Assembly: GCA_018648645.1 (NCBI GenBank)
Contig: JABGQS010000017.1
Coordinates: 1 to 50,835, forward strand
Direction: 5' to 3'
DNA length: 50,835 nt
Source: Clostridia bacterium
Lineage (GTDB): Bacteria > Bacillota > Clostridia > Christensenellales > SZUA-584
Position 1 is the stretch's first letter. The number at the start of each line of letters is the position of its first letter. The notes under the pieces were generated by a model, which searched no databases, was not told the DNA's origin, and saw nothing but the letters and a program-made list of their open reading frames with translations. Below, piece after piece: positions 561 to 16,972 of this stretch. A program made the position numbers and the translations under genes.

Positions 561-1535
561 CTACTCCGTAAACGGGAACACGAGCTTCTGATTCTCGGGC
601 AAATACATGTTTTCCTTGTCAATCACTTCCGACCCTGTGTTAACGGATCTTGGAACCTTCTCGTTGCGAATCGCGTCCAGCGCATACTTTACTCCGAGAT
701 ACCCCATGTTAAACGGGTTTTGTATTACAAGCGATTGAATGACATCCTTCTCCATAAAACTGATTTCCTCAGGCGTGCTGTCAAACCCGATAATTTTTAT
801 CTCGCCTGCATATCCCAGCTCGTCAATTGCGTATGCTGTCCCTACAGTGCCATATGCGTTTAAACACACAAACGCGTCAATTTCCGTCTCGCTGTTTACA
901 ATATCTATCGTAAGCTGCTTTGCAAGCGATTCTTCAGAGTTGCAATACAACGTATCTATTACCTCTATGCCTTCATATTGGCTTATCTCGTCAAAGAACC
1001 CTTCCTCTCTTTGAACAGCGGTCGCAGTTCCTTTAACAAAACTCATTACTACAATTCTGCACTCCGCTCCCACCTTATCAATCAGCGACTCCCCAAGCTT
1101 TCTTCCTGCGTCCACATTGTCTGTGCCTATAAAGCTGTCTATCTTATCAGAATTGAGATTTGAGTCGATGATAATCACAGGTATTCCGGCCGCTTTTGCT
1201 TTTTCTGCCACCGGCACAAGCAATTCATAGTCGCTGGCTGCCAATACCAATGCGTCAACATCTTCATCGATGGCTTCCTGAACCATCTCTATCTGACCGT
1301 CGATATCCCGCTCATATGTCGGACCGTCAAAATCAATATTTACATTGAACTCCCTGCCCGCAGCCTCTGCGCCCATTTGCACTACTGCCCAAAATCCGGG
1401 TTCTTGCATTTTGACAACAACCTTGATGTTAAGCTTTTTTTCCTCAGTTGTCAGCTCTCCGCTCGAGCATCCAATCAAGGACACGCTTATAACCAGTATC
1501 AATATCAATATGACTATTCTATGTAATCTTCTCAT
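561..1535 (-). CDS. Sugar-type substrate-binding lipoprotein (RbsB-like), probable sensor partner
   Basis: A 324-residue periplasmic-binding protein of the ribose/galactose type (Peripla_BP_4). The N-terminus has a basic start, a hydrophobic stretch and a lipobox ending in LIGC (Cys about 23), so it should be membrane-anchored. Typical family blocks are visible: IEMVQEAIDEDVDALVLAASD, the GIPVIIIDS strand and the IGTDN hinge region. The ATG at 1535 is preferred over the GTG at 1538 because AGGAG lies six bases upstream. It is the last gene after a response regulator and histidine kinase, and no permease or ATPase is nearby. It may therefore present a ligand to the kinase rather than feed a transporter, as known for XylFII with LytS in clostridia. 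The ligand is unknown. Confidence 0.88.
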   Translation of the reverse strand: MRRLHRIVILILILVISVSLIGCSSGELTTEEKKLNIKVVVKMQEPGFWAVVQMGAEAAGREFNVNIDFDGPTYERDIDGQIEMVQEAIDEDVDALVLAASDYELLVPVAEKAKAAGIPVIIIDSNLNSDKIDSFIGTDNVDAGRKLGESLIDKVGAECRIVVMSFVKGTATAVQREEGFFDEISQYEGIEVIDTLYCNSEESLAKQLTIDIVNSETEIDAFVCLNAYGTVGTAYAIDELGYAGEIKIIGFDSTPEEISFMEKDVIQSLVIQNPFNMGYLGVKYALDAIRNEKVPRSVNTGSEVIDKENMYLPENQKLVFPFTE

Positions 1536-3327
1536 CACTATCTCCTATCTGCTCCCCGGTCAGAGGTATCGAAATACTCACAGTAGTCCCAACCTCAATC
1601 TCGCTCTTTATATCCACGCCATACTCATCCCCATAGCTCAGCTTAATTCTCTCATACACGTTTTTCAGCCCAACGCCCAATGTTCTTTTGTTCGTAGGCT
1701 CCGTTTCAAATATCTTTTTCAAACGCTCCGGCTTTATTCCAAACCCGTTATCGGCAACACGGAAAATAATCTTGTCGCCTTCAATAAACACTTTGATGTA
1801 GATCTCGCCCTTGTCTTGAATCTTGTTAATCCCGTGATATATCGCGTTCTCGATAATCGGCTGCAAAATCAGCTTTATCGTTTTATGATGAAGCGCCTCG
1901 TCCTGCACATCAATAGTATAATCAAACTTGTTCTTATACCTGATTTTCTGAATGACCAAATAGCTTGCCGCATGCTCAACTTCGTCACTTACGTCAATAA
2001 CCTCGTTGCCTTTGCTTATGCTTATTCTAAAGAACCTCGCCAATGCCCCCGTCATCTCAGACACACCCTCGTGGTTTTGGTTCTCGTTCATCCATATAAT
2101 CGAGTCCAGCGTGTTATACAGGAAATGCGGATTAATCTGCGCTTGCAAAGCGTTAAACTCGCTTTTGCGTTTCGCTTCCTGCTCGCTGATAATCTGGTTC
2201 ATCAGCATTTTGATTCGCGATATCATCAGATTGAACGCCTTCGTCAAGCGCTTCACCTCGTCCTCGCCCTTCACTTCCAAGTTTTCAATATCAAAATCGC
2301 CCTGTTCCACGCGGTTCATCTGATGCTCAAGTCTTTTAACGGGTTTTGATATCCTTGACGAAATGAATATTGACGCCAGAACAACAAATACAATTCCAAA
2401 CACCAATATAATTATAATAAAGTTGGTAAAGTCACGCATGTTCGGCACAAGCTCGTCAACATAACTGACCCCAACCATTTTCCAATCGGAATACTGTATG
2501 TTTTTTATCGTTGTGATGCGCCGCTCACCTTGAAAGTCGTCAACAAACGACCCTTGCTCAAGCTCAATCACTTCGTCTATGCTCTCCTCTTTCAGCCCCG
2601 AATATATGAGCTGCTGCTGAGGATGAAAGATGATATTACCGTCTTTATCCACCACATAAATGTATCCGCGGTTCCCAAGGCTGACGCGGTTGCAAAGCTC
2701 TTCGATAACGCTGAAATTCATATCGACCATCGCCGCCCAAGTCTCATCGCGTCCAAGGTACTCGACACTCAAACCTCTGTTCATCGAAACCACCCAAGGT
2801 CGCCGTCCTTCAAACAGCCTTTGTACATGCGGCGGTTGAAACAAATACGCTTCCGGGTCTTCTATCGTTTGGTTGAACCAATCCTGCTGCAACACAGAAT
2901 AGGTTCTGTCCGTGTCGTGCCCCGGGTTCGTCAGCATCACGTTCCCATTGCCGGTATATATCGCAACCGTCACAATATCTTCCCTAAGCTCAAGCGTCAA
3001 CGACAGCATATTGTCAAGGTTTTGCATATTGTCGGGCGATGTATCAATCATATTTGCGCTTATCAAGTCGGATATTTCTATCATCGTCTCCAAATAGTTT
3101 TCAAGGTTTATAGTCGCCTGGTCCATAATCTGCTGGGCGCTCGAAGCCGCGTTCTTCTCGGCGTTGCTGGAGAACGTGCTGTACAGCCCAATCCCCACCA
3201 TAATCATCGCAATAATCGTTATTGTAGAAAACGACAACGTAATAATCGACTGAATGCTGTTTATTCTGAAACTTTTTCTCACCACTTTGGGCGTTTTTAT
3301 TAATATTCGCTTTAGCCTTCGTCTCAC
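1519..3327 (-). CDS. YesM/LytS-type sensor histidine kinase
   Basis: A 602-residue membrane histidine kinase. In order: TM1 about 27-52, an extracytoplasmic dCache-like sensor about 53-300 (GNRGYIYVVDKDGNIIFHP is typical), TM2 about 302-323, HAMP about 324-376, a His_kinase domain with QINPHFLYNTLDS (phospho-acceptor His401), and a HATPase with N-box ENAIYHG and GxG motif DNGFGI. It starts at a GTG with AGGAG upstream; the start overlaps the stop of the response regulator by four bases (GTGA), which suggests coupled translation. Its 3' end overlaps the binding-protein gene. It probably phosphorylates the YesN-like regulator upstream in response to an extracellular sugar-like signal. Confidence 0.93.
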   Translation of the reverse strand: MRRRLKRILIKTPKVVRKSFRINSIQSIITLSFSTITIIAMIMVGIGLYSTFSSNAEKNAASSAQQIMDQATINLENYLETMIEISDLISANMIDTSPDNMQNLDNMLSLTLELREDIVTVAIYTGNGNVMLTNPGHDTDRTYSVLQQDWFNQTIEDPEAYLFQPPHVQRLFEGRRPWVVSMNRGLSVEYLGRDETWAAMVDMNFSVIEELCNRVSLGNRGYIYVVDKDGNIIFHPQQQLIYSGLKEESIDEVIELEQGSFVDDFQGERRITTIKNIQYSDWKMVGVSYVDELVPNMRDFTNFIIIILVFGIVFVVLASIFISSRISKPVKRLEHQMNRVEQGDFDIENLEVKGEDEVKRLTKAFNLMISRIKMLMNQIISEQEAKRKSEFNALQAQINPHFLYNTLDSIIWMNENQNHEGVSEMTGALARFFRISISKGNEVIDVSDEVEHAASYLVIQKIRYKNKFDYTIDVQDEALHHKTIKLILQPIIENAIYHGINKIQDKGEIYIKVFIEGDKIIFRVADNGFGIKPERLKKIFETEPTNKRTLGVGLKNVYERIKLSYGDEYGVDIKSEIEVGTTVSISIPLTGEQIGDSDEKIT

Positions 3328-4958
3328 TTGGTTGGCTCCTGACCGTTAAGTGCTGTGTTCTTATACTCTCTCGGGGAAACACCAAAGTTTTTCTTGAAGA
3401 AATAACTGAAATAGCTTACATCAGGGTAGCCTACCTTCTCTGCCACTTCGGTAATTTTCACATTCGGTTCTTTTAATAAGCTTTTGGCCGCACCCAGCCG
3501 AACGCGTATCAAATACTTCAAAAACGTTTCCTGCGCTTCTTTTTTGAAAATCAAGCTCAAATAGCTCGAGCTGATAAACAAATGATCAGCCAGCTTTTGA
3601 ATACTCAGCTGGGTATCGCCATAGTTGCTGTTGATATAATCCTTCGCTTTTTCAAGCAGCTTTTGTGTCGCGCTCATGCGCTTGCTCGAAATCCTATTCA
3701 TCAACTCCCGGCTTACGTTCTCAATCCATCCCTTAACCTCATCCATGGTGTTAAAGTTGTTAATTTGCATATACATGTTATAGCTCTCCGGCAAAATATC
3801 CATAATATCAAGCTGATAGGTTCTGCTGAGCTTTGACACAACGGTGAAAATCTCCATAAAGTAAAGCTGATACTCATCGATGGACGCAGCAGCCCCCTGT
3901 AAATCGTCAAACAGCATGTTTACTGCGCTCGTCACCGTTTCCTCGTCACCAAACTTAATGCTAGACACCAGCCTGGCTTCCATTTCCTCGTCCAGCACGA
4001 TCGCGCTCGTTTTCCCAGGCTCGATATCGCCTGCATAGATTACCTTGTTGCCGCCAAGCACCAGCTTATACTCAAGCGCTGTGCTTGCCGACTTATACGA
4101 TTCCTTCATCTGGTTGACGCTATCATAAATGTCGCCAAGTCCAATCGTTACCGTAAGGCTTAAATACTTTTGCACAGCCTGCCTAATCTCCTCCAACAAG
4201 CTAAACAATCGATTGCAAGCGACCGTCTTGTCTTGCTCGTCCATCCCCGCAATAACAACCGGCGTGTTCCCATAAAAGAAAGCCGCGCCCACGCTGTACT
4301 TGCCTAGTATCTCTTGCGCGATATTCAAAACCGCGAACTTCATCAAGTCACCGCTCTTCTCGTGCACGGCTGCGCTCCCCGAGCTTTTTTCATCAAGATT
4401 AATAACCGCAGCCGCAAAACTGCTGCCCGAAATGTTCAAGTCGAAAATGCGTATCTTCGCCTCAATTTCGCTACTCTTTGGGTTCCCGATAATCAGCGAC
4501 GTTAAAAAATTGTCCTTCAATATCGGCAGACTCTCAAAATAATGCTGCTCCAGCTTACTCCTATCCTTCTTATCCTCAAATTCACTGTCCAATTGAGTCT
4601 TCAATCTACCAAGCAGCTCGTTTAAATCTTTCGGCAAAACGGGCTTTAGAACATAATCCGAAACATCGTGCTTAATAGCAGCTTGCGCAAATTTAAAGTC
4701 GTCAAAACCGGTGAGAATCACCATTTTTACCATGGGGTAATCTGTCTTTACCGCAGCCGCCAACTCCAGTCCATTCATCAGCGGCATGTTGATATCGGTA
4801 ATGATAATATCAGGCACATTGTCTTCGATGATATCAAGCGCCTCTCTGCCGTTCTCAGCCTCACCGACCACTTGAAAGTCAAACCGTTCCCAATCTATTT
4901 TTTTTACTATTCCGTGGCGGACTTCTTCCTCGTCATCCACAATAAGTAATTTATACAC
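3324..4958 (-). CDS. YesN-type response regulator with AraC DNA-binding domain
   Basis: A 544-residue response regulator. The receiver domain spans about 1-120: acidic pair VDDEE near residues 8-11, phospho-acceptor Asp55 in IITDINMP, and Lys106 in the YVLKP block. A long linker resembling the degenerate GGDEF-like region of YesN proteins follows. The C-terminal AraC double helix-turn-helix covers about 440-540 (ITEVAEKVGYPDVSYFSYFF then FGVSPREYK). An upstream in-frame ATG at 5021 exists, but the GTG at 4958 has a perfect AAGGAGG six bases before it and begins exactly at the receiver fold, so it is chosen. It is the first gene of the unit with the kinase and binding lipoprotein and probably activates sugar uptake genes elsewhere. 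Confidence 0.93.
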   Translation of the reverse strand: MYKLLIVDDEEEVRHGIVKKIDWERFDFQVVGEAENGREALDIIEDNVPDIIITDINMPLMNGLELAAAVKTDYPMVKMVILTGFDDFKFAQAAIKHDVSDYVLKPVLPKDLNELLGRLKTQLDSEFEDKKDRSKLEQHYFESLPILKDNFLTSLIIGNPKSSEIEAKIRIFDLNISGSSFAAAVINLDEKSSGSAAVHEKSGDLMKFAVLNIAQEILGKYSVGAAFFYGNTPVVIAGMDEQDKTVACNRLFSLLEEIRQAVQKYLSLTVTIGLGDIYDSVNQMKESYKSASTALEYKLVLGGNKVIYAGDIEPGKTSAIVLDEEMEARLVSSIKFGDEETVTSAVNMLFDDLQGAAASIDEYQLYFMEIFTVVSKLSRTYQLDIMDILPESYNMYMQINNFNTMDEVKGWIENVSRELMNRISSKRMSATQKLLEKAKDYINSNYGDTQLSIQKLADHLFISSSYLSLIFKKEAQETFLKYLIRVRLGAAKSLLKEPNVKITEVAEKVGYPDVSYFSYFFKKNFGVSPREYKNTALNGQEPTK

Positions 4959-5048
4959 GCGTTTCCTCCTTAGGTTTCCGGTTGCTGCAAACGCATCGCA
5001 AGATGTTAGACTTATACTCATACAACAAACTTATGCTACATAAGTGTG

Positions 5049-5091
5049 TTTAGTGTGGACTAAATGTACCATAAAAGATTTGAAAACTCAA
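5049..5091 (-). promoter_or_regulatory. Candidate promoter with overlapping inverted repeat, upstream of the YesN-like gene
   Basis: On the minus strand TTGAGT (5086-5091), a 17-base spacer and TACATT (5063-5068) form a moderate sigma-A-like promoter. A perfect inverted repeat TTTAGT-GTGG-ACTAAA (5049-5064) covers the expected start site and could be an operator. Both calls rest on pattern only. Confidence 0.35.
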
Positions 5092-5126
5092 ATGACACTC
5101 TGTTTCACATTATATGTTCGAAATCC

Positions 5127-6071
5127 CTACAGACCAAGAAGCACGACCGCCGTAAAACAGATTACGCCGATAATCGACCCGATAGATAGGGTGTTAGAAA
5201 CATAGTTCAAATCTTCTGTTGAGGGGTCTTTCATGAACACAGGTATCACAAACGGTGCTGGCAAGCAGCACAAAGCATACAGCGCAGTAATAATACGGGC
5301 ATCTACGCCTAGCGGCACAAGCACTGTTTGTACTAATATAAATGCAAACAGCAGCGCAAACGCAACTTTCAGCAATGCCGTCAATATCTCCATTTTCATG
5401 CTCTTTATAGACAGCTTTAAGCCGCTTCCAATCACCAGGCATATCAATAACGCGGTCGGTGCAGACGCGAACGAAAAAATATTGTCAAACGCTGCAAACA
5501 CTTTACTTCCCTCATATGCCCAAAGCCCCGCCAGTGATCCTGCCAGCCCCAATATAATCGCCCAAATCACAGGCGATTTCATTGCCGTTTTAAGCGATGT
5601 CTTAATACTGGCAAGCCCTTTTTCGCTGCTTCCCATATTGATAATCATCGGCACAAACACCAAGAACACAAACACGACCTGACCGATATCCACCACAGCG
5701 AAATCAGCCGCCGCATCCGCTCCAAACACAGCCGTAAACAACGCATACCCCATCATGCCCGCCTCAAACCCGGTCAGCAAAAACGGAAAATACTTTGATT
5801 TAATCGAGAAAACTCTTGCAATCAGCTTCGCAATAAGGAATAGTAAAAAGCATGTGACAAAAACGCACGCAATTATAATCAGATATTCCACTTTGAACTG
5901 GATTTTTATAAAAGCCAAAAACAGCCCAGCCGGAAGTGTCACGTTAACGACAATCTTCTTGAACGCGTCAACCATGCTTTCTTTTAGAAATCCCGCTCTT
6001 GTAAGAAAATACCCAAGCGCGATGGCAACGAGTATTGGTATTACTTTTATCACTATTTCAAATGTATTCAT
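5127..6071 (-). CDS. AEC-family transporter (auxin efflux carrier / malate permease type)
   Basis: A 314-residue integral membrane protein with about ten hydrophobic segments arranged in two halves, starting VIKVIPILVAIALGYFLTRAG. The N-terminal pattern with a glycine-rich first helix and the C-terminal LCCLPAPFVIPVFM block fit the auxin efflux carrier family, whose bacterial members move organic acids such as malate or malonate. The start has a GAGG site at the right distance. It is the last gene behind a tautomerase, an iron-sulfur protein and a CobW-like GTPase, so it may transport the acid substrate or product of that pathway. The substrate cannot be read from sequence. Confidence 0.85.
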   Translation of the reverse strand: MNTFEIVIKVIPILVAIALGYFLTRAGFLKESMVDAFKKIVVNVTLPAGLFLAFIKIQFKVEYLIIIACVFVTCFLLFLIAKLIARVFSIKSKYFPFLLTGFEAGMMGYALFTAVFGADAAADFAVVDIGQVVFVFLVFVPMIINMGSSEKGLASIKTSLKTAMKSPVIWAIILGLAGSLAGLWAYEGSKVFAAFDNIFSFASAPTALLICLVIGSGLKLSIKSMKMEILTALLKVAFALLFAFILVQTVLVPLGVDARIITALYALCCLPAPFVIPVFMKDPSTEDLNYVSNTLSIGSIIGVICFTAVVLLGL

Positions 6072-6395: not shown

Positions 6396-7430
6396 CTACA
6401 CAAATCCCTTATTCCGATTTCGCTTCCTGCTGCCAAATTTCGCTTTATACCCATCAACAAACGCGATGATCTGCTCCTCGGTCATATCCTTGATATTCTC
6501 CGCATCAATCTCCTGCCCAATCGGACACGCGCTTATACATATTCCGCAATCCGTTCCAAGGCTTCGCCAAGTTTTATAACACTTCTCCTGCTCAATCCTC
6601 CAAGTCGCGCTATCGCCGGATTCGGATATCGTTCTTGCGGGGCACGTCTTCACACAAAGCGCACACAACCTGCAAAACCGCTCAATGTTCAGGTTCGCCT
6701 TTGCGTCCGTTTGCAGCGCCAATTCCGTAGTCACAATACCCAGCCGTACAAAACACCCGTTAGCTCTGCTAATCAGCAAACTGTTGCGCCCTCGCTCTCC
6801 AAGCCCCGCTTCCACAGCAATCGGAATCGCCGGCATCAAATAATTGCCGTCCATGTGACACCGCGCGTCATACCCCAAACCTCTGATAAATTGCGCAATT
6901 TGCAGCCCGATAACTGCCGCATCCACATACGCCTTGCTCGTCTCAAGGCACGCCGACATGGCAGGTGCTGTGTTAACAGCATCTACGCTCATCTCCACCG
7001 CAAACACAATCGCGTATTTGCTGCTCGTGTCCACAGCATCTCCATAGTTTTGTGTGTGTCTGCCTCTATGCGAGTAATAAAATTCCTCGTCGGTACGCGC
7101 TATTCCAACGTCAACCGCGCCGTAATGAGCCGTCATGTTTTTTATCAGCGACGAAATCTCCTGGGTATCAACCTGCGTTTTTATTGCGTTCACTTCGCCA
7201 TTGCAAAACTGCCGCAGATGTGCCAACAGCTCAAAGTTCGCTTCAACGGCAGGCACCAGCATCGGGTCATACGTCGGCGTGTTTTGCGCACACAAATGCG
7301 GCATGTCCCTCAGCTCACCGTCAATCGCTTCCCGCTTAGGATGTCGCTTATAGTAATCAAGATATTCTACCCCGCCGGGCTGCAAACCCATCCGCGCAAA
7401 CATAATGTCTCTCTCGTCAACTCTTTTCAT
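6396..7430 (-). CDS. RdhA/QueG-like double 4Fe-4S oxidoreductase
   Basis: A 344-residue cytoplasmic protein (no Tat signal). The C-terminal third carries CxxCxxCxxxCP (Cys253, 256, 259, 263), a lone Cys284 and CxxCxxxCP (Cys295, 298, 302), enough for two [4Fe-4S] clusters. Upstream, AVEAGLGERGRNSLLIS and VRLGIVTTELAL match the block that precedes the clusters in reductive dehalogenases and epoxyqueuosine reductases, both cobalamin enzymes. The ATG at 7430 is chosen (AAAGGA eight bases upstream). It lacks the C-terminal extension of QueG and the secretion signal of respiratory RdhA, so a queuosine role is unlikely. A corrinoid-dependent or plain ferredoxin-like reductase acting on a small organic molecule is an inference from family and context. 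Confidence 0.75.
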   Translation of the reverse strand: MKRVDERDIMFARMGLQPGGVEYLDYYKRHPKREAIDGELRDMPHLCAQNTPTYDPMLVPAVEANFELLAHLRQFCNGEVNAIKTQVDTQEISSLIKNMTAHYGAVDVGIARTDEEFYYSHRGRHTQNYGDAVDTSSKYAIVFAVEMSVDAVNTAPAMSACLETSKAYVDAAVIGLQIAQFIRGLGYDARCHMDGNYLMPAIPIAVEAGLGERGRNSLLISRANGCFVRLGIVTTELALQTDAKANLNIERFCRLCALCVKTCPARTISESGDSATWRIEQEKCYKTWRSLGTDCGICISACPIGQEIDAENIKDMTEEQIIAFVDGYKAKFGSRKRNRNKGFV

Positions 7431-7476
7431 ATGCAAATTCCTTTACAACTTGTAAACTGTACTGCTTTCCGGCGCG

Positions 7477-8520
7477 TTATTTCCTACCGACTACAACGAC
7501 CAGTTTGCTGTCCTGCTCAGCAGCAGCGGTCACGTTCAAGTCGCCATACACCCACTGCACAAGCACACTGCGCCCACCAACGCTCACACGCCCCTTAATA
7601 CGAAACACGGTTTCCGGCAGTTTGTCCTTGACGACGCGCTCAATTAGCCCCTTCAGCGCTTTTTTATCAGCAAGCGGCTTCACATCCAGCACAAAGCTAT
7701 AAAATTCGTCATCATCCGCCTTGTCAGCGTGTACATGTTCTTTTTTCATAATATTACGCCCATTTCCTTCGTTTCCATGCCCATTTCGAGCATGGTCGCA
7801 CTCGTCAACGACGCTTTCGCACCCATTCTTGCTCCCGTCGTACTCATTTTGCCCGTGCTTGCACTCGTCATCGCCCTGTTTGCACCCAATTCCTTCACAG
7901 TCGACTTTGCCGCCTTCACTGCCACTTTTGTCGCGATATCCCACTCCCTCGCCTGCTGCAAAGTCGCTGACATCGCTATATATGCGCTGTGCACCCCTGC
8001 GCTCCTCAACGCTGCGCTGTGCATCGGCAAACACATCGCTGTCGGCGCCCTCTTTCCTGCTAATATATATGATGTTTGCGTTGTCAATTTGGTCGTTATA
8101 GAAAGCACCAAGCAAGTCCATGAACTTCATATGAAACACAGGATTCACAACCGTTATCTTGTTGTTAGTGTATGCAATTCCCCTCAAAGATTCGTGCCCA
8201 GTAGCATCAGCAACATCGCTAAGCTTTGCCACCCCCGTCGTCTCAATTACGATTCGGTCAAGTTCAAACCTCTCGCACAGCTCCTTAATACCCTCAATCA
8301 AGCTGACTTTAAGCGTGCAGCAAACGCACCCGCCGGTAATTTTTGTGATTTCGATATCGCCGGGCAGCAGCGCCGAGTCAATGTCCACTTCGCCAAACTC
8401 GTTCTCGATAATCGCAACTCTCTCACCTTTGTATATCGCTGACAGCAGCGCGTTTATCAGCGTGGTCTTGCCCGACCCCAGAAACCCGGAGATAATATCT
8501 ATCGGTATTTTTTCATTCAT
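7477..8520 (-). CDS. CobW/G3E-family P-loop GTPase with metal-binding-like linker
   Basis: A 347-residue G3E GTPase: Walker A GFLGSGKTT (12-20), the EFGEVDID switch-like segment (41-48), the family CxCC motif in GGCVCCTL (63-70) and ETTGVA (93-98). The C-terminal CobW_C domain spans about 270-345. Between them (about 195-268) is a low-complexity stretch rich in Asp, Cys, His, Gly and Asn, including KKEHVHADKADDDEF, which probably binds metal. The usual base-specificity NKxD box is not seen where expected; the aligned region reads ISRKEG. Family members insert or deliver metals (Zn, Co, Ni) to client enzymes. Next to an RdhA/QueG-like protein, a role in cofactor or metal supply is plausible but unproven. 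Confidence 0.85.
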   Translation of the reverse strand: MNEKIPIDIISGFLGSGKTTLINALLSAIYKGERVAIIENEFGEVDIDSALLPGDIEITKITGGCVCCTLKVSLIEGIKELCERFELDRIVIETTGVAKLSDVADATGHESLRGIAYTNNKITVVNPVFHMKFMDLLGAFYNDQIDNANIIYISRKEGADSDVFADAQRSVEERRGAQRIYSDVSDFAAGEGVGYRDKSGSEGGKVDCEGIGCKQGDDECKHGQNEYDGSKNGCESVVDECDHARNGHGNEGNGRNIMKKEHVHADKADDDEFYSFVLDVKPLADKKALKGLIERVVKDKLPETVFRIKGRVSVGGRSVLVQWVYGDLNVTAAAEQDSKLVVVVGRK

Positions 8521-8568: not shown

Positions 8569-11466
8569 CTATCCCAAAAACTCTTTTTGTATCAGCCCTT
8601 GCATCTCGTCAATCTCCTTGAACGATTCGCGCAGCAATATCTCTTCCATGTTCCCAAGCTGCGTTGGATCAACAAAGTTGTCAAGCTTTTCGTTGCGTTC
8701 AATCGCCAATACTTGGTTCCACAATCTCAGCCGCACCAAAGTCTCATACGCCGTAATAATGTCGCGGTGCTTGCTGTCAAGTATTATCCCCAGGCTCTTT
8801 ATAGCGTCAAGCTGCAGTAGCGTGTTCGATTCGCGTATAGCGTTTTTCAGCGTGTACAGCCGCGCAAATGTTATAATCGCCATCGCCGGCGTCTTCACGT
8901 CAATTCCGGGATTGTTTTTGCCGCCCGAAGTCATGATGTTACCAAACAGCCGCAGTGGCGTCCTGAATATCAGCGCGTTTTGTGCAATCTGCGATATAAA
9001 GAACGGCGCATCCTTAATCTCTTTAAAAATATGGTTTCGCAGCTCCGCCGCAAGCTCAGTATCCCCCGACACCGGCCGGAAGTCAAACAATATGCTAAAC
9101 TCAATCACGTTCTGTGGCGTGCTGTTGTGTATCCACTTGCTAAAATACGACTTCCAAACAGGCAGCGGCTTGCACCACTCGGGGTTGCTCGCAATCTTGC
9201 CGCCCTCGCATTTTTCGTACCCGACAAGCTCAAGGTCGTCACACACAATTGTTGCAAGCTTGATGAAGTACTCCTGCAAAGTGTCCTCGTCCTGCCGCCC
9301 TGTCGGTTGATAAACGAGCGCGTTGTCCTGATCGCTAAACAGCGTTTGCGACTGCCGCCCGTGGCTGCCCAGCGCCAAGAAAGCGAAAGCCGTCGGCGGC
9401 TCGCCAACCTCTTTGATGGCAAGCTCAATAATTTTTTGCGTTATCAAATCGGATATGGTCGATATCATATACGCAACCGCTATCGACGACGTTCCGTTTT
9501 CCAGAAGCGACACAACCAACCCGCGCGTCTTTTTGCCAAGCGTCACAACCTCGCTCACATGATGCGCATCTCTAATCGAATCAGCTAAGTCACTGGCTAT
9601 GCTGCTCGGCAGATGCAGCAAGCGGTTCAGTGCCACATGCGTGCCCGTGTGCTCCGCGATGTCAACAGAGCGCCGCACCAATATCATAGACCCCGAATTC
9701 GGGTCGTTCATTTCATTCTTTATTGTCAGCTTACAGCTTATCAAATTGCCGTTGCACCGTTTGATAAACCCGCTCACAACGTTCGGCACAAAAGCCTGTC
9801 CGGCATTTTCAAGTATTTCCCTCCACTCCTCGTTTCCTTCAATATCGGGGAATATGTCGTCCAAATCCAATAGCTCAATCATATTGGACGCGCACCCAAG
9901 CAACTCATACATAACGGTGTTTGCATACCGCAATCGTCCGTCATACACATACAATGCACCCTCGGTCGCCGCTTCGCTAAGCGCTTGATACCTCTCGGTA
10001 GACTCCATCAACAGCGTCTGCGCTTCGCCTCGCGAAGTTTCCAGCTTCACACCCTGCCGTATCAAATACAACAGTATCAGCATAACAATCACAACGATGC
10101 CAACTGATATATTCGCAAGATAATTGCGCAGCTCGGCAATCTCTGCCTGCACATCGTGCACATAAAGCCCCGTACCGATTACCCATCCCCACGGTTCAAA
10201 AAGGCGCACAAACGATTCCTTTTGCTCAAGGCGCTCCTCGTCGTCCACCCACTGCCAAACATAGCTGACATACCCTTCGCCTTCTTTAAGCACGATATCC
10301 GCAAACTCGACAAAGATTCTATGGCCTTGCGGATCGGTATAATCCGACACGTCCTGGTCGTTCAAGTCCGTCCTGAACGGATGCATTAATATTCGCGGCG
10401 ACGTGTCCTGCAGCCAAAAATAACCGCTGTTGTCCACTCCATACCGCATCGACGAAATTTGTCTTTTTGCCAACGATTGTGCTTGCTCCAGCGACATCTG
10501 CCCGCTTGCCACTTCCTGCTCCGCTTGGCTAAGCACGCCCCAAGCCGCTTGGCTAAGCTGACGTATGCTTTCGCGCTTTCTGTCCATCAGCGTCTCTTCA
10601 AAGTAAGGCAGTATAAACACGAACAACGCCACCACAAACAGCGCCAGCGACAAAACGGCGGGCAGCAGTATATTTCTGATAAACGCGAACCATTTATTCT
10701 TATTTCGCTTTGGCTTTTTGACCGACTGAGTTTCATCAACCTGAACGGTTTTCGCAGCCACCCTAATCAGCGCGTTTCTAAACGTCTTCCACTGCGCAAC
10801 GCTGATGCTCTTGCCCACTTCATTGCCGTTTGGTTTGTGAAAGTCGGTACCCGCAGACACAAACAACTTGCCTTTTGCCGCAATCTGCAAAAGAGTTTTC
10901 TCTTTATCGCGCGTGTTTGGTCCGTACAGCGCCTCTATGCCGTCGAGCCCAAGGTCCGCGAGCTCGCTCACCATCGTTTTTAGCACATGTTCCCTCGGCT
11001 CTGTATGAAATGGATGCGCCATAACAGCAATACCGCCCGCGCGGTGTATAATATCAATAATTTCTGATGATGTGCGAAATATTTTTGGCGTTGGATTACG
11101 CCCCGTCGTGCTGGCGGTTTTCTCATCAAGCAGCTCAACAATCTCGGAGCTCTCCGAATCAAACCCATAGCCCAGCAAATGCAGCACGTGGTGCTTGTGC
11201 ACTGTCGTAATCTCCACGCCCGACACATAACCAATACCATACTTGGTCAACGCACGCCGAAACGCCGGCAATCCTTCGATAGTGTTGTGGTCGACAAGCG
11301 CGGCATACTTGACACCCGCATCAGACAACTCCTTCGCCACCAGCGCGGGTGAGAGCGCTCCGTCGCTAAACGACGAGTGGCAGTGCATATCAACACGTAT
11401 GGTCTTGCTCGATTCGTCTTTTCTACCCTTTTTGTTCAGCGTTTCTTCAATTTGATCAAACTTCAT
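8569..11466 (-). CDS. PHP phosphoesterase - sCache - PAS - DUF294 nucleotidyltransferase-like fusion
   Basis: A 965-residue membrane protein with a rare domain order. A PHP domain (about 22-240) keeps its metal ligands: HCH (28-30), DH (59-60), AHPFH (His151) and GTDFH (Asp208, His210). TM1 lies about 263-288. A single Cache domain of the sCache_2 type covers about 290-445 (DNSGYFWLQD and WGWVIGTGLYV are hallmark strings). TM2 is about 449-472, then a PAS-like domain about 485-605. A DUF294 nucleotidyltransferase-like domain follows with GSHGRQSQTLFSDQDNALVY (700-719), the GlnD-like catalytic signature, and a DUF294_C helical region about 780-950. The start has AGAGGAAG upstream. It probably links an extracellular small-acid signal to phosphoesterase or nucleotidyl transfer chemistry; the target is unknown. 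It heads the group that continues with the CobW-like gene 48 bases downstream. Confidence 0.85.
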   Translation of the reverse strand: MKFDQIEETLNKKGRKDESSKTIRVDMHCHSSFSDGALSPALVAKELSDAGVKYAALVDHNTIEGLPAFRRALTKYGIGYVSGVEITTVHKHHVLHLLGYGFDSESSEIVELLDEKTASTTGRNPTPKIFRTSSEIIDIIHRAGGIAVMAHPFHTEPREHVLKTMVSELADLGLDGIEALYGPNTRDKEKTLLQIAAKGKLFVSAGTDFHKPNGNEVGKSISVAQWKTFRNALIRVAAKTVQVDETQSVKKPKRNKNKWFAFIRNILLPAVLSLALFVVALFVFILPYFEETLMDRKRESIRQLSQAAWGVLSQAEQEVASGQMSLEQAQSLAKRQISSMRYGVDNSGYFWLQDTSPRILMHPFRTDLNDQDVSDYTDPQGHRIFVEFADIVLKEGEGYVSYVWQWVDDEERLEQKESFVRLFEPWGWVIGTGLYVHDVQAEIAELRNYLANISVGIVVIVMLILLYLIRQGVKLETSRGEAQTLLMESTERYQALSEAATEGALYVYDGRLRYANTVMYELLGCASNMIELLDLDDIFPDIEGNEEWREILENAGQAFVPNVVSGFIKRCNGNLISCKLTIKNEMNDPNSGSMILVRRSVDIAEHTGTHVALNRLLHLPSSIASDLADSIRDAHHVSEVVTLGKKTRGLVVSLLENGTSSIAVAYMISTISDLITQKIIELAIKEVGEPPTAFAFLALGSHGRQSQTLFSDQDNALVYQPTGRQDEDTLQEYFIKLATIVCDDLELVGYEKCEGGKIASNPEWCKPLPVWKSYFSKWIHNSTPQNVIEFSILFDFRPVSGDTELAAELRNHIFKEIKDAPFFISQIAQNALIFRTPLRLFGNIMTSGGKNNPGIDVKTPAMAIITFARLYTLKNAIRESNTLLQLDAIKSLGIILDSKHRDIITAYETLVRLRLWNQVLAIERNEKLDNFVDPTQLGNMEEILLRESFKEIDEMQGLIQKEFLG

Positions 11467-11533
11467 ATCGCTTCCTCTGCCAGTATATTTTGAAAAAAGT
11501 TCGGTGTAAATCTACTGTCGCTAATCGCAGACA

Positions 11534-13110: not shown

Positions 13111-13752
13111 ATGAAAATCAGACAACTTAGAACCTGGCACATTATAGGTGCCTTTGTAATATTCGCGCTCGCAGCGCTTTGGCATTTTGTATATGCATGG
13201 ATACCAAGCGGGGTAACAGCCGTAATCTTCCCGGTTAACGAGAGCATTTGGGAGCACGCAAAGCTATTCTTCTTCCCATCAATCATATTTTTTATAATCG
13301 AATACATCGCCGTGGGCAAAAAGTTCCGCAACTTCATATTCGCACAGGCGCTGTCCATCTTTTTCATGACGGGAATCACCTTCGGGCTTTTCTACTTGTA
13401 CCGCGACGGTTTCGGCATTGATGAAAACCTGACCATCGACATCATCCTCACGTTTGTTGGCATTTGCCTCGGGCTGTTGATAGGATACAAGATGACTGTC
13501 AGCAAAAAGAAAATCGGAAACAGTGCCATCGGCATTATTCTCGCAATACTGCTTTGCGCCGCTTACGGCGTGCTGACGTTCTTTGTTCCCGAAAAACCAA
13601 TCTTCATGGACAACGCTTCGCAGAAGTACGGCATCGAAGCTTTTGACGCCAACCACTCGCACACCGAAGGCGATGTCCACGATGACGACGAAGCACACTC
13701 CGATGACGAAGACATCGACGACGCCGACCACGTAGAAGACGACGACCACTAG
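13111..13752 (+). CDS. DUF6512-like integral membrane protein with acidic/His tail
   Basis: A 213-residue protein with about six hydrophobic segments: HIIGAFVIFALAALWHFVYA near the N-terminus, then helices around 50-65, 75-95, 110-130 and 143-160. The PVNESIWEHAK segment after helix 1 looks like a conserved family motif of DUF6512 membrane proteins. The last about 35 residues are almost only Asp, Glu and His (HTEGDVHDDDEAHSDDED and on), a cytosolic or external tail that could bind divalent metal. AGGGGTGG precedes the ATG. It is a single-gene unit with its own promoter and terminator, divergent from GH3. Function unknown; a metal-related role is inference from the tail only. Confidence 0.75.
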   Translation: MKIRQLRTWHIIGAFVIFALAALWHFVYAWIPSGVTAVIFPVNESIWEHAKLFFFPSIIFFIIEYIAVGKKFRNFIFAQALSIFFMTGITFGLFYLYRDGFGIDENLTIDIILTFVGICLGLLIGYKMTVSKKKIGNSAIGIILAILLCAAYGVLTFFVPEKPIFMDNASQKYGIEAFDANHSHTEGDVHDDDEAHSDDEDIDDADHVEDDDH

Positions 13753-13825: not shown

Positions 13826-14878
13826 CTACCGCGCTATCCCCGGCAACCCAAACGCCGCCGTGCTCATCTCGTCGATATTCTCGCCTTTAATGTCCGCCAT
13901 GCAAGTGTGGCTGTTTGCCACCACATATCCCCCACAGTTCTCAAACGCTCTGTAGTTTCGTATAACCTCTTTGCGAATGTCATCGGGGCTGCCGAACGTC
14001 AACAGGTGCTGCGCGTCAATCGCGCCAAAAAACACAATCTTGCCGCCGTAATGCTGCGCCAGCTCCTCGACCACCATTCCTTGCGCGCTCGTTTGTATCA
14101 CCAGCAGCGCGTCCACACCCATGTCAATCAGGTCGGGTATCACTTCACGCACCGCACCGCACGAATGGAACAACACCTTAAACCCCGCGTCCTTCAAATA
14201 TCGTATCGTTTTTTTCAAATACGGCTTGATAAGCTCTCTCCACATGTCGGGGCTAAGCAGCAGTCCTGTCTCTCCGGCAAAATCGTCACCAATCCACGCA
14301 TAGTCGCAATAATCCCGCGCGCCTGCTTCCACATTCTTTTTAAACACACCCACCGAGTAATCCGACTGTATCTGCGCATACGCTTTGAACACCTCGCGTT
14401 CAAGGTGCATTTTTACCATCGCTTCCTGCATGCCAAACGCTTCGCACGCGCCGCTGAAAATCGGCATCCAATACGGCACCAATATAAACGGAAACTCCGG
14501 CCATCTTGCCTTTGCGCCTTCAAAGTCCGCGACAACCGTTTGGCTCGCGTCAGGGCTGAACATTTTAATAACGTCACCGGCGCTGTGCGCATTTGTCAAT
14601 GGGCGCTCCACATCGTCGGTGTACGAACCCGCTTCATCCGCTCCGTCCGCGTCAAACTCATGCTTGTTCATCTTTTCGGGCGATCCGGTATACAGCCACC
14701 TGAAATCCGCGTGCATATGCGTTAGAATCTGCTCGTCATTGCTAAAATCATATTTATTATAGAAATAGCTTCTCAGCGCCGGCCAAACGTTGCTTTCCAT
14801 CAAATCAATCGGCGGTCTGTCCGTCTGCTCAAAACTAAACGTTTTTGTCGTTCTCTGCCTACTGGTCATTTTTTGCAT
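13826..14878 (-). CDS. Uroporphyrinogen decarboxylase-family protein (MtaA/CmuA-like methyltransferase)
   Basis: A 350-residue URO-D-superfamily protein. It begins with the family pattern RQRTTKTFSFEQTDRPPIDL and keeps the zinc-site motif HSCG (His238, Cys240) seen in corrinoid:coenzyme M methyltransferases, plus a later Cys in ANSHTCM (Cys326). These features point to methyl transfer or demethylation with a corrinoid partner rather than haem synthesis. It is the last gene of a four-gene unit with a D-2-hydroxyacid dehydrogenase and two more distant URO-D relatives. No corrinoid-binding protein is encoded in the window, so a partner would have to be elsewhere. Confidence 0.85.
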   Translation of the reverse strand: MQKMTSRQRTTKTFSFEQTDRPPIDLMESNVWPALRSYFYNKYDFSNDEQILTHMHADFRWLYTGSPEKMNKHEFDADGADEAGSYTDDVERPLTNAHSAGDVIKMFSPDASQTVVADFEGAKARWPEFPFILVPYWMPIFSGACEAFGMQEAMVKMHLEREVFKAYAQIQSDYSVGVFKKNVEAGARDYCDYAWIGDDFAGETGLLLSPDMWRELIKPYLKKTIRYLKDAGFKVLFHSCGAVREVIPDLIDMGVDALLVIQTSAQGMVVEELAQHYGGKIVFFGAIDAQHLLTFGSPDDIRKEVIRNYRAFENCGGYVVANSHTCMADIKGENIDEMSTAAFGLPGIAR

Positions 14879-15877: not shown

Positions 15878-16948
15878 CTATTTAATATCAAGCGGGTTCC
15901 AATCCTCGGGCAGCCAATAGAGCATCATCAACCCTTGCGGTTTTAATGCGTCCAGCATTGTTTGCACCTCGTCCCGGCTAAGCTCGCCGTTAATCAGCAC
16001 ACACTTGTCAGCGTCCTGCACCGTTTTGCACGCCTGCATCACCTTGTCCAAGCTCCATTCCGGCACAGCTTCTCTGTCAAGGTTAATTTGCACACATCCA
16101 AGCTCCTTTATTTTAACCAAACTTTCGATAACGTGCAAGCCCGTATAGTGCGTGTGTATCAATGAATACTCGAACTCGGCGACAATTTGCGCATCAAACT
16201 CAAGCAGCAAATCCTCGTACATGTCCCTGCTAAAAAGATTGGACGCGTCCACTTGATAGCTAAGCAGCTCGCCCGGCGCATACACGCCCCAAGAAATCAC
16301 GTTACCGCCCCGCCACAAACCGCGCTTCTGTATGTCGCTTTTTGCCGTTTCAATATATAACTCAGTGAATTTGCTCGCAAGCTGCTTAATCATGTCGGGA
16401 TAATCGTAAACCGCCAAACACAGCACGTCCTCTTTAAAATACGCCGCCAACATATCCACAATCCCGCGCAAATGAAACTGCGATGCCGCGATTTTCCCGT
16501 CAGCGTGCCCTACAATCGCGTCCGTGCACTCCTGCAGATACTTATACCAATCCGACTTCATTGCCCTCTCAACACTGAATTTCTCTGCCGCCTGCGCAAT
16601 ATCGCCATACTCTGCGCCAAGCGCGCTGCAGCTTACCCCAGAAGCACATATCGGACACCCGATTATCCCGCTCATCCAAGCCTGCGGATAAAGCGGCATC
16701 ACACAATCGATTCGGTTTCCATAATGCAAGTCAGGTATCGGTTTTCTGAGTCCCAAAAACTTTGCTGTGTTGATTTCGCTCGGCACAATTTGCTGCACAT
16801 CAACAATATCGCCGCCCTTTAGCGGATACGGCTTTGTGCGCCACCGCACAAACGGCACCTGCTGCAAAACAGCCTGCTCGTTGCTTCGCTCCCAAAATGC
16901 GCAATGCTTCTCAATCACGGCTTCAATGCTATGTGCTTTCTCCTGCAT
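15878..16948 (-). CDS. Divergent URO-D-superfamily protein
   Basis: A 356-residue protein that I place in the uroporphyrinogen decarboxylase superfamily by its overall layout: C-terminal barrel strands with LIHTHYTGLHVIESL (His265, His267) where methyltransferases have HxCG, then KELGCVQINLD and DKCVLINGELS. The zinc-type Cys is replaced, so the chemistry may differ. An N-terminal Cys cluster (CPICASGVSC, about 98-107) is unusual. A TTG at 16960 is possible, but the ATG at 16948 is preferred. It lies 12-25 bases after the next URO-D-like gene. The function is unknown beyond probable barrel enzyme. Confidence 0.65.
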   Translation of the reverse strand: MQEKAHSIEAVIEKHCAFWERSNEQAVLQQVPFVRWRTKPYPLKGGDIVDVQQIVPSEINTAKFLGLRKPIPDLHYGNRIDCVMPLYPQAWMSGIIGCPICASGVSCSALGAEYGDIAQAAEKFSVERAMKSDWYKYLQECTDAIVGHADGKIAASQFHLRGIVDMLAAYFKEDVLCLAVYDYPDMIKQLASKFTELYIETAKSDIQKRGLWRGGNVISWGVYAPGELLSYQVDASNLFSRDMYEDLLLEFDAQIVAEFEYSLIHTHYTGLHVIESLVKIKELGCVQINLDREAVPEWSLDKVMQACKTVQDADKCVLINGELSRDEVQTMLDALKPQGLMMLYWLPEDWNPLDIK

Positions 16949-16972
16949 ACCTGCCCCCAATATAGTAAATGC

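Follow-up and report, generated by a model that had tools for sequence, protein, structure and literature searches.

Pflu5625 of P. fluorescens, a protein with cAMP-binding, CBS and nucleotidyltransferase domains, has been treated together with the CrbS/R acetate system, and its mutant showed no phenotype (PMC5715377). RNase AM, a PHP-domain enzyme, coordinates its metals through H13, D20, H45, E72, H83, H198, D255 and H257, and an insertion domain within it binds the 5′ phosphate and the base of the nucleotide (PMC9410882). In the chemoreceptor PscD, seven residues touch propionate (PMC5062169). Replicative DNA polymerases, moreover, are known to be proofread by either of two kinds of enzyme, PHP domains or DEDD exonucleases (PMC5636811). 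Here we describe a gene from a Clostridia bacterium that encodes a PHP domain, a Cache sensor, a PAS domain and a DUF294 nucleotidyltransferase on one chain; it lies in a 50,835-nucleotide stretch of DNA, referred to below as the window.

The gene occupies positions 8569–11466 of the minus strand, on which all its features lie, and is read as a single 965-codon frame with an ATG start and no internal stop; a good ribosome binding site, AGAGGAAG, stands ahead of the ATG in the 5′ leader (11467–11500). From the N-terminus, the chain consists of a PHP phosphoesterase domain (residues 22–240, 10747–11403, delimited by alignment to RNase AM, 7UG9; Pfam match at 25–92, E 6e-9, with homology carried to about residue 220 by phmmer), a transmembrane helix (about residues 263–288, 10603–10680) preceded by the basic stretch KKPKRNKNK, an sCache_2 sensor (residues 289–446, 10129–10602; Pfam 292–444, E 7e-33), a second transmembrane helix (about residues 447–472, 10051–10128), a PAS domain (residues 485–605, 9652–10014; PAS_8 at 490–549, E 7e-5), the DUF294 nucleotidyltransferase (residues 646–784, 9115–9531; E 8e-41, 139.6 bits against a cut-off of 21) and DUF294_C, a helical substrate-binding domain (residues 822–962, 8581–9003; E 3e-28, 99 bits against a cut-off of 22.5). 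All five Pfam domains score above their cut-offs, and the open reading frame and Pfam agree with the original prediction that these domains share one chain in this order. The Pfam scan found no HD, ACT, second nucleotidyltransferase, CBS, HisKA/HATPase or MCP signalling domain in the protein; between the PAS and DUF294 domains, where related proteins carry a CBS pair, the alignment has a gap. In the hydropathy profile, the hydrophobic segments at about residues 266–286 and 450–469 both have basic residues on their PHP or PAS side, which places the PHP and nucleotidyltransferase domains inside the cell and the Cache domain, between the two helices, outside. This agrees with the predicted cytoplasmic phosphoesterase and outward-facing sensor. 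The description of the sensor as periplasm-facing is to be corrected, however, since the genome encodes PolC, a pointer to a Bacillota-type bacterium, and the Cache domain may therefore be extracellular.

We then asked how far the fusion recurs. A complete orthologue (L066:8533–11424, 964 amino acids, 63% identity) lies mid-contig in a genome of another family of the same order (G806). Two partial copies come from a single further family, in another order of the class: one covers residues 1–725 (L055 in G487, 62% identity) and is cut by a contig end, and the other covers residue 253 to the end (L056 in G654, 65%) and is cut by a contig start. The domain order is repeated in all three over the parts present, and the weakly scoring PAS domain is recovered in L066 too. 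Four genomes, from three families or more, thus carry the fusion, amid unrelated genes wherever the surroundings are visible; it is therefore real, rare, patchy and old enough for its sequences to have diverged to 63% identity. Whole-genome searches placed the PHP-bearing form in four of roughly 1,000 genomes of the phylum, a lower bound, because the searches covered samples of each group and contig ends truncate two of the carriers; no further carrier was found among five genomes of the family or in partly overlapping samples of the phylum (398), class (291) and order (396). Nor was the PHP-bearing form recognised in 258 genomes of the class of Desulfofustis, a class with many sCache-DUF294 proteins, in a search whose 1e-60 cut-off hid weak PHP matches, so that PHP was checked only in the loci read back, none of which carries it. 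Selection by name also caught longer DUF numbers, such as DUF2946, along with DUF294, and several such matches were set aside. An alignment-based search of IMG/VR returned no relatives. With four carriers seen and no published description found in the literature searched, the architecture is neither widespread nor already characterised, and the complete and partial orthologues rule out a frame error that joined two genes, the other event that could have undone the original prediction. Its suggestion that the order may be new stands as regards the architecture, which we did not find described, but not as regards relatives, because sCache-PAS-CBS-DUF294 proteins are common in the class of Desulfofustis.

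The PHP domain aligns with RNase AM (7UG9), the phosphoesterase 3E0F and CV_1693 (2YB1). The published RNase AM ligands, in the order given above, correspond to H28, D35, H60, E85, H96, H151, D208 and H210, and H15 of its HxH motif, which we add to the published list, corresponds to H30. Together these residues make up a nine-ligand, three-metal site, and none of the nine varies among the three PHP-bearing sequences, even though the domain is only 50–56% identical between orthologues and has changed more quickly than the sensor and the nucleotidyltransferase (65–75%). All metal ligands are thus present, as had been predicted. The RNase AM insertion (residues 107–172, about 65 residues) has no counterpart, with residues 119 and 126 aligning to 106 and 173 of 7UG9, and R201 of RNase AM is replaced by H154; this probably leaves the pocket open, and a substrate other than that of RNase AM is to be expected. 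Scores against the NCBIfam models for RNase AM (119 bits; cut-off 400) and nucleoside bisphosphate phosphatase (108 bits; cut-off 375) both fall below threshold; the domain, a PHP phosphoesterase by its nine-ligand site, thus lies outside these two families.

The sensor aligns with PscD (5G4Y, E 1e-30; 5G4Z) and with Adeh_3718 (4K08). All seven propionate-contacting residues of PscD are kept (Y349, W351, H362, F385, Y402, W404 and K416), and they are invariant in five relatives. The putative ligand is accordingly a small carboxylate of the acetate, glycolate, propionate and pyruvate class, in keeping with the external acid that had been proposed.

In the DUF294 domain, the G-S, D-x-D and third acid of the Pol-beta superfamily are all present, as G700 and S701, D712 and D714, and D795, which falls just past the Pfam match; the motif singled out in the original prediction, GSHGRQSQTLFSDQD, spans residues 700–714. 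The GS pair and the triad are invariant in nine relatives. At residue 706 (about 9349–9351), all four PHP-type proteins read GRQS, with serine in place of the glutamate of the GR-x-E motif of the other DUF294 proteins read. A tree of DUF294 domains gathers the PHP type in one clade (support 100/100), which is placed firmly with neither kind of DUF294 protein. An AlphaFold model of residues 609–965, built from three sequences, is mostly helical (mean pLDDT 62) and matches both halves of GlnE (Z 15.7 and 14.5) and DrrA (Z 14.6) over 267–286 aligned residues; the next match, to aminoglycoside nucleotidyltransferases, falls to Z 8.7. A full-length model from two sequences reached a pLDDT of 39, and a PDB sequence search with the nucleotidyltransferase part alone gave no match. 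For the model of residues 609–965, which is of moderate confidence, protein adenylylators of the GlnE and DrrA type are the best fold match, a likeness of fold that does not imply function. The predicted GlnD-like nucleotidyltransferase with its partner domain is in agreement with the Pfam DUF294 and DUF294_C matches, the triad and the GlnE/GlnD-like model.

In the genome with the complete orthologue, G806, the genes immediately upstream of the PHP-DUF294 gene encode a Na+/solute symporter of the VC_2705 family (TIGR03648, 804 bits; ActP superfamily) and a small membrane protein; this pair lies at L066:6228–8432. It recurs in the window's genome, on another contig (L139:6723–9093, contig C39), with 75% and 47% identity to that of G806; the small protein is conserved and has 110–147 residues across both, and its L066 copy has no Pfam match. 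Of 18 loci from the window's phylum, 4 have an SSF symporter close to the DUF294 gene; such a symporter also lies beside a Balneolales gene (L018) and near 12 of 18 sCache-DUF294 loci of the class of Desulfofustis, the last being close relatives and not independent loci. This neighbourhood therefore occurs in three phyla, and acetyl-CoA synthetase-type genes are also among the DUF294 neighbours. The target of the protein may thus be another protein, which departs from the self-contained enzyme of the original prediction, as a target is still needed.

The neighbours in the window itself (a CobW GTPase, an Fe-S protein and a GH3 protein) were rejected as a guide to function, for none adjoins the gene in G806 or in the flanks read in G487 and G654, and a role in anti-phage defence was set aside, as PADLOC returned no match. 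The window has other features of its own. About 2.5 kb away, at 1519–6071 (minus strand), is another sensing cluster, with genes for a dCache histidine kinase and for a response regulator of AraC type whose middle domain resembles GGDEF, adjoined by a Mem_trans-family carrier gene (5127–6071, minus strand). At 6396–8520 (minus strand), a reductive-dehalogenase-like 4Fe-4S protein, which scores below its family cut-off, is encoded beside the CobW GTPase, which has a His/Asp/Glu-rich insert; with a nearby URO-D-type methyltransferase gene (13826–14878), this pair probably belongs to corrinoid-dependent metabolism. At 13111–13752 (plus strand) is the gene for a DUF6512 membrane protein whose long His/Asp-rich tail may bind metal, and a 360-amino acid open reading frame with no Pfam or NCBIfam match lies at 15878–16960 (minus strand), beside URO-D and 2-hydroxyacid dehydrogenase genes.

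A second aspect of context concerns a partner hydrolase. A DEDDh exonuclease is encoded in 17 of 18 cNMP-CBS-DUF294 loci of the window's phylum (L100–L116 and L118), mostly directly downstream on the same strand, and this steady pairing offers a clue to the chemistry of DUF294 proteins at large. No separate DEDDh gene was found in the window's genome or in G806 (a draft 68% complete), where the sole matches lie inside PolC, and none was matched in G487 or G654 (drafts 86% and 71% complete). The PHP domain may therefore fill the missing role, and this, together with the analogy of the polymerase proofreaders, suggests that it may provide in cis a hydrolysis for which the exonuclease serves in trans. 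The sCache-PAS-CBS-DUF294 loci of the class of Desulfofustis have neither an exonuclease nor a PHP domain nearby, however; that branch can evidently do without a hydrolase partner, and the idea of PHP as a plain replacement for the exonuclease is weakened.

Given the architecture and its conservation, the intact catalytic and ligand residues, the topology and the fold match to adenylylators, we tentatively favor, at somewhat less than even probability, a receptor for a carboxylate of the acetate type that attaches a nucleotide to a target, while PHP acts as the opposing eraser. The original prediction that the protein could add and remove a nucleotide is a reasonable one, and its interpretation as a whole is partly supported; the symporter neighbourhood, the link of Pflu5625 to CrbS/R and the exonuclease pairing also speak for this reading. 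A small carboxylate would bind the extracellular sCache domain and shift the second membrane helix; through the PAS linker, this shift would govern how active the cytoplasmic DUF294/DUF294_C nucleotidyltransferase is. The latter would nucleotidylate a target protein, perhaps a monocarboxylate symporter or an acid-activating enzyme. PHP, a putative three-metal phosphodiesterase on the same cytoplasmic face, would remove the nucleotide, a role taken by HD in GlnD. The stricter proposal of a membrane-spanning switch made of one protein, whose carboxylate sensor outside the cell has direct control over both a protein nucleotidyltransferase and a PHP-type eraser, is more doubtful; we found no description of such a use of PHP in protein de-nucleotidylation in the literature searched. 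Against the favored reading count the symporter adjoining the gene in only one of four carriers (G806), the absence of any account of DUF294 biochemistry from the same literature, the hydrolase-free sCache-PAS-CBS-DUF294 loci, the modest pLDDT of the nucleotidyltransferase model, the serine in the GR-x-E motif and the loose placement of the PHP clade in the tree.

DUF294 might instead make a free nucleotide messenger (a short oligonucleotide, a nucleotidylated RNA end or a small molecule) that PHP degrades, as DEDDh would in trans. The regular DEDDh partner of the cNMP-CBS-DUF294 proteins is a polynucleotide enzyme, the PHP enzymes most closely related to this one, RNase AM and bisphosphate phosphatase, have nucleotides as substrates, and PolX shows that PHP and a nucleotidyltransferase can be fused (PMC6616362). 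Nevertheless, the top fold matches are protein adenylylators and not polymerases, and both the nucleotide-binding insertion and R201 of RNase AM are missing; we regard a messenger as a serious but rather unlikely alternative. It is unlikely that PHP forms an independent output of its own under the same sensor, as a phosphatase or phosphodiesterase for a substrate that has nothing to do with the nucleotidyltransferase, as the two intact active sites at opposite chain ends and the faster evolution of PHP might suggest, because its pairing with DUF294 is kept across families while the neighbours are not and because GlnD and PolX are precedents that tie such pairs to one product. Loss of the R201 and GR-x-E equivalents and the structural cap formed by PHP in E. 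coli DNA polymerase III (PMC3666897) would fit a regulatory remnant of one or both catalytic domains; this seems improbable with nine metal ligands and a full triad invariant, given that the E. coli domain has lost several ligands (PMC3666897). A frame error or assembly chimera, conceivable in a draft of 77 contigs, is ruled out for practical purposes by the complete mid-contig copy in a second draft genome, the two partial copies, and GC and GC3 that are uniform along the gene.

The protein offers a tractable system for the study of DUF294 proteins, which accompany acetate-type transporters in several phyla: sensor, writer and probable eraser are here in one chain, with known candidate ligands, obvious catalytic mutants and, in G806, an adjoining symporter as first candidate target. 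If PHP is the eraser, this would suggest why other DUF294 genes keep an adjoining exonuclease.

How does the protein compare with known systems? The sCache-PAS-(PAS)-CBS2-DUF294-DUF294_C proteins, such as that of Desulfofustis (Thermodesulfobacteriota; L017:7968–10916), share its order of transmembrane helix, sCache_2, transmembrane helix, PAS, DUF294 and DUF294_C and keep the seven ligand residues and the triad, but they lack PHP, carry the CBS pair and a second PAS domain and are about 35% identical. The cNMP-CBS2-DUF294-DUF294_C proteins (cf. Pflu5625) have the output domains and the acetate-linked setting in common, but are soluble, sense by cNMP and CBS domains and, in the loci read, have the DEDDh exonuclease as a separate gene. 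GlnD and GlnE likewise join a Pol-beta-type protein nucleotidyltransferase, a helical partner, and writer and eraser on one chain; their erasers are HD and a second nucleotidyltransferase, respectively, not PHP, and both are soluble, without Cache or transmembrane segments. RNase AM (YciV) and the 3′,5′-nucleoside bisphosphate phosphatase CV_1693, among the closest solved PHP relatives, share the nine ligands, whereas the substrate-binding insertion domain and R201 of RNase AM are missing here. The PscD chemoreceptor (5G4Y/5G4Z) has a similar ligand-binding domain, with all seven contacts, but its output is chemotaxis. Bacterial PolX DNA polymerase also combines PHP with a Pol-beta-type nucleotidyltransferase (PMC6616362), but has PHP at the C-terminus, acts on DNA and has no membrane sensor. 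Thus, the sCache-PAS-CBS-DUF294 and cNMP-CBS-DUF294 kinds were known already, and what is new is the presence on the same chain of a PHP domain that lacks the RNase AM insertion, together with the loss of CBS, in genomes in which no separate DEDDh gene was found.
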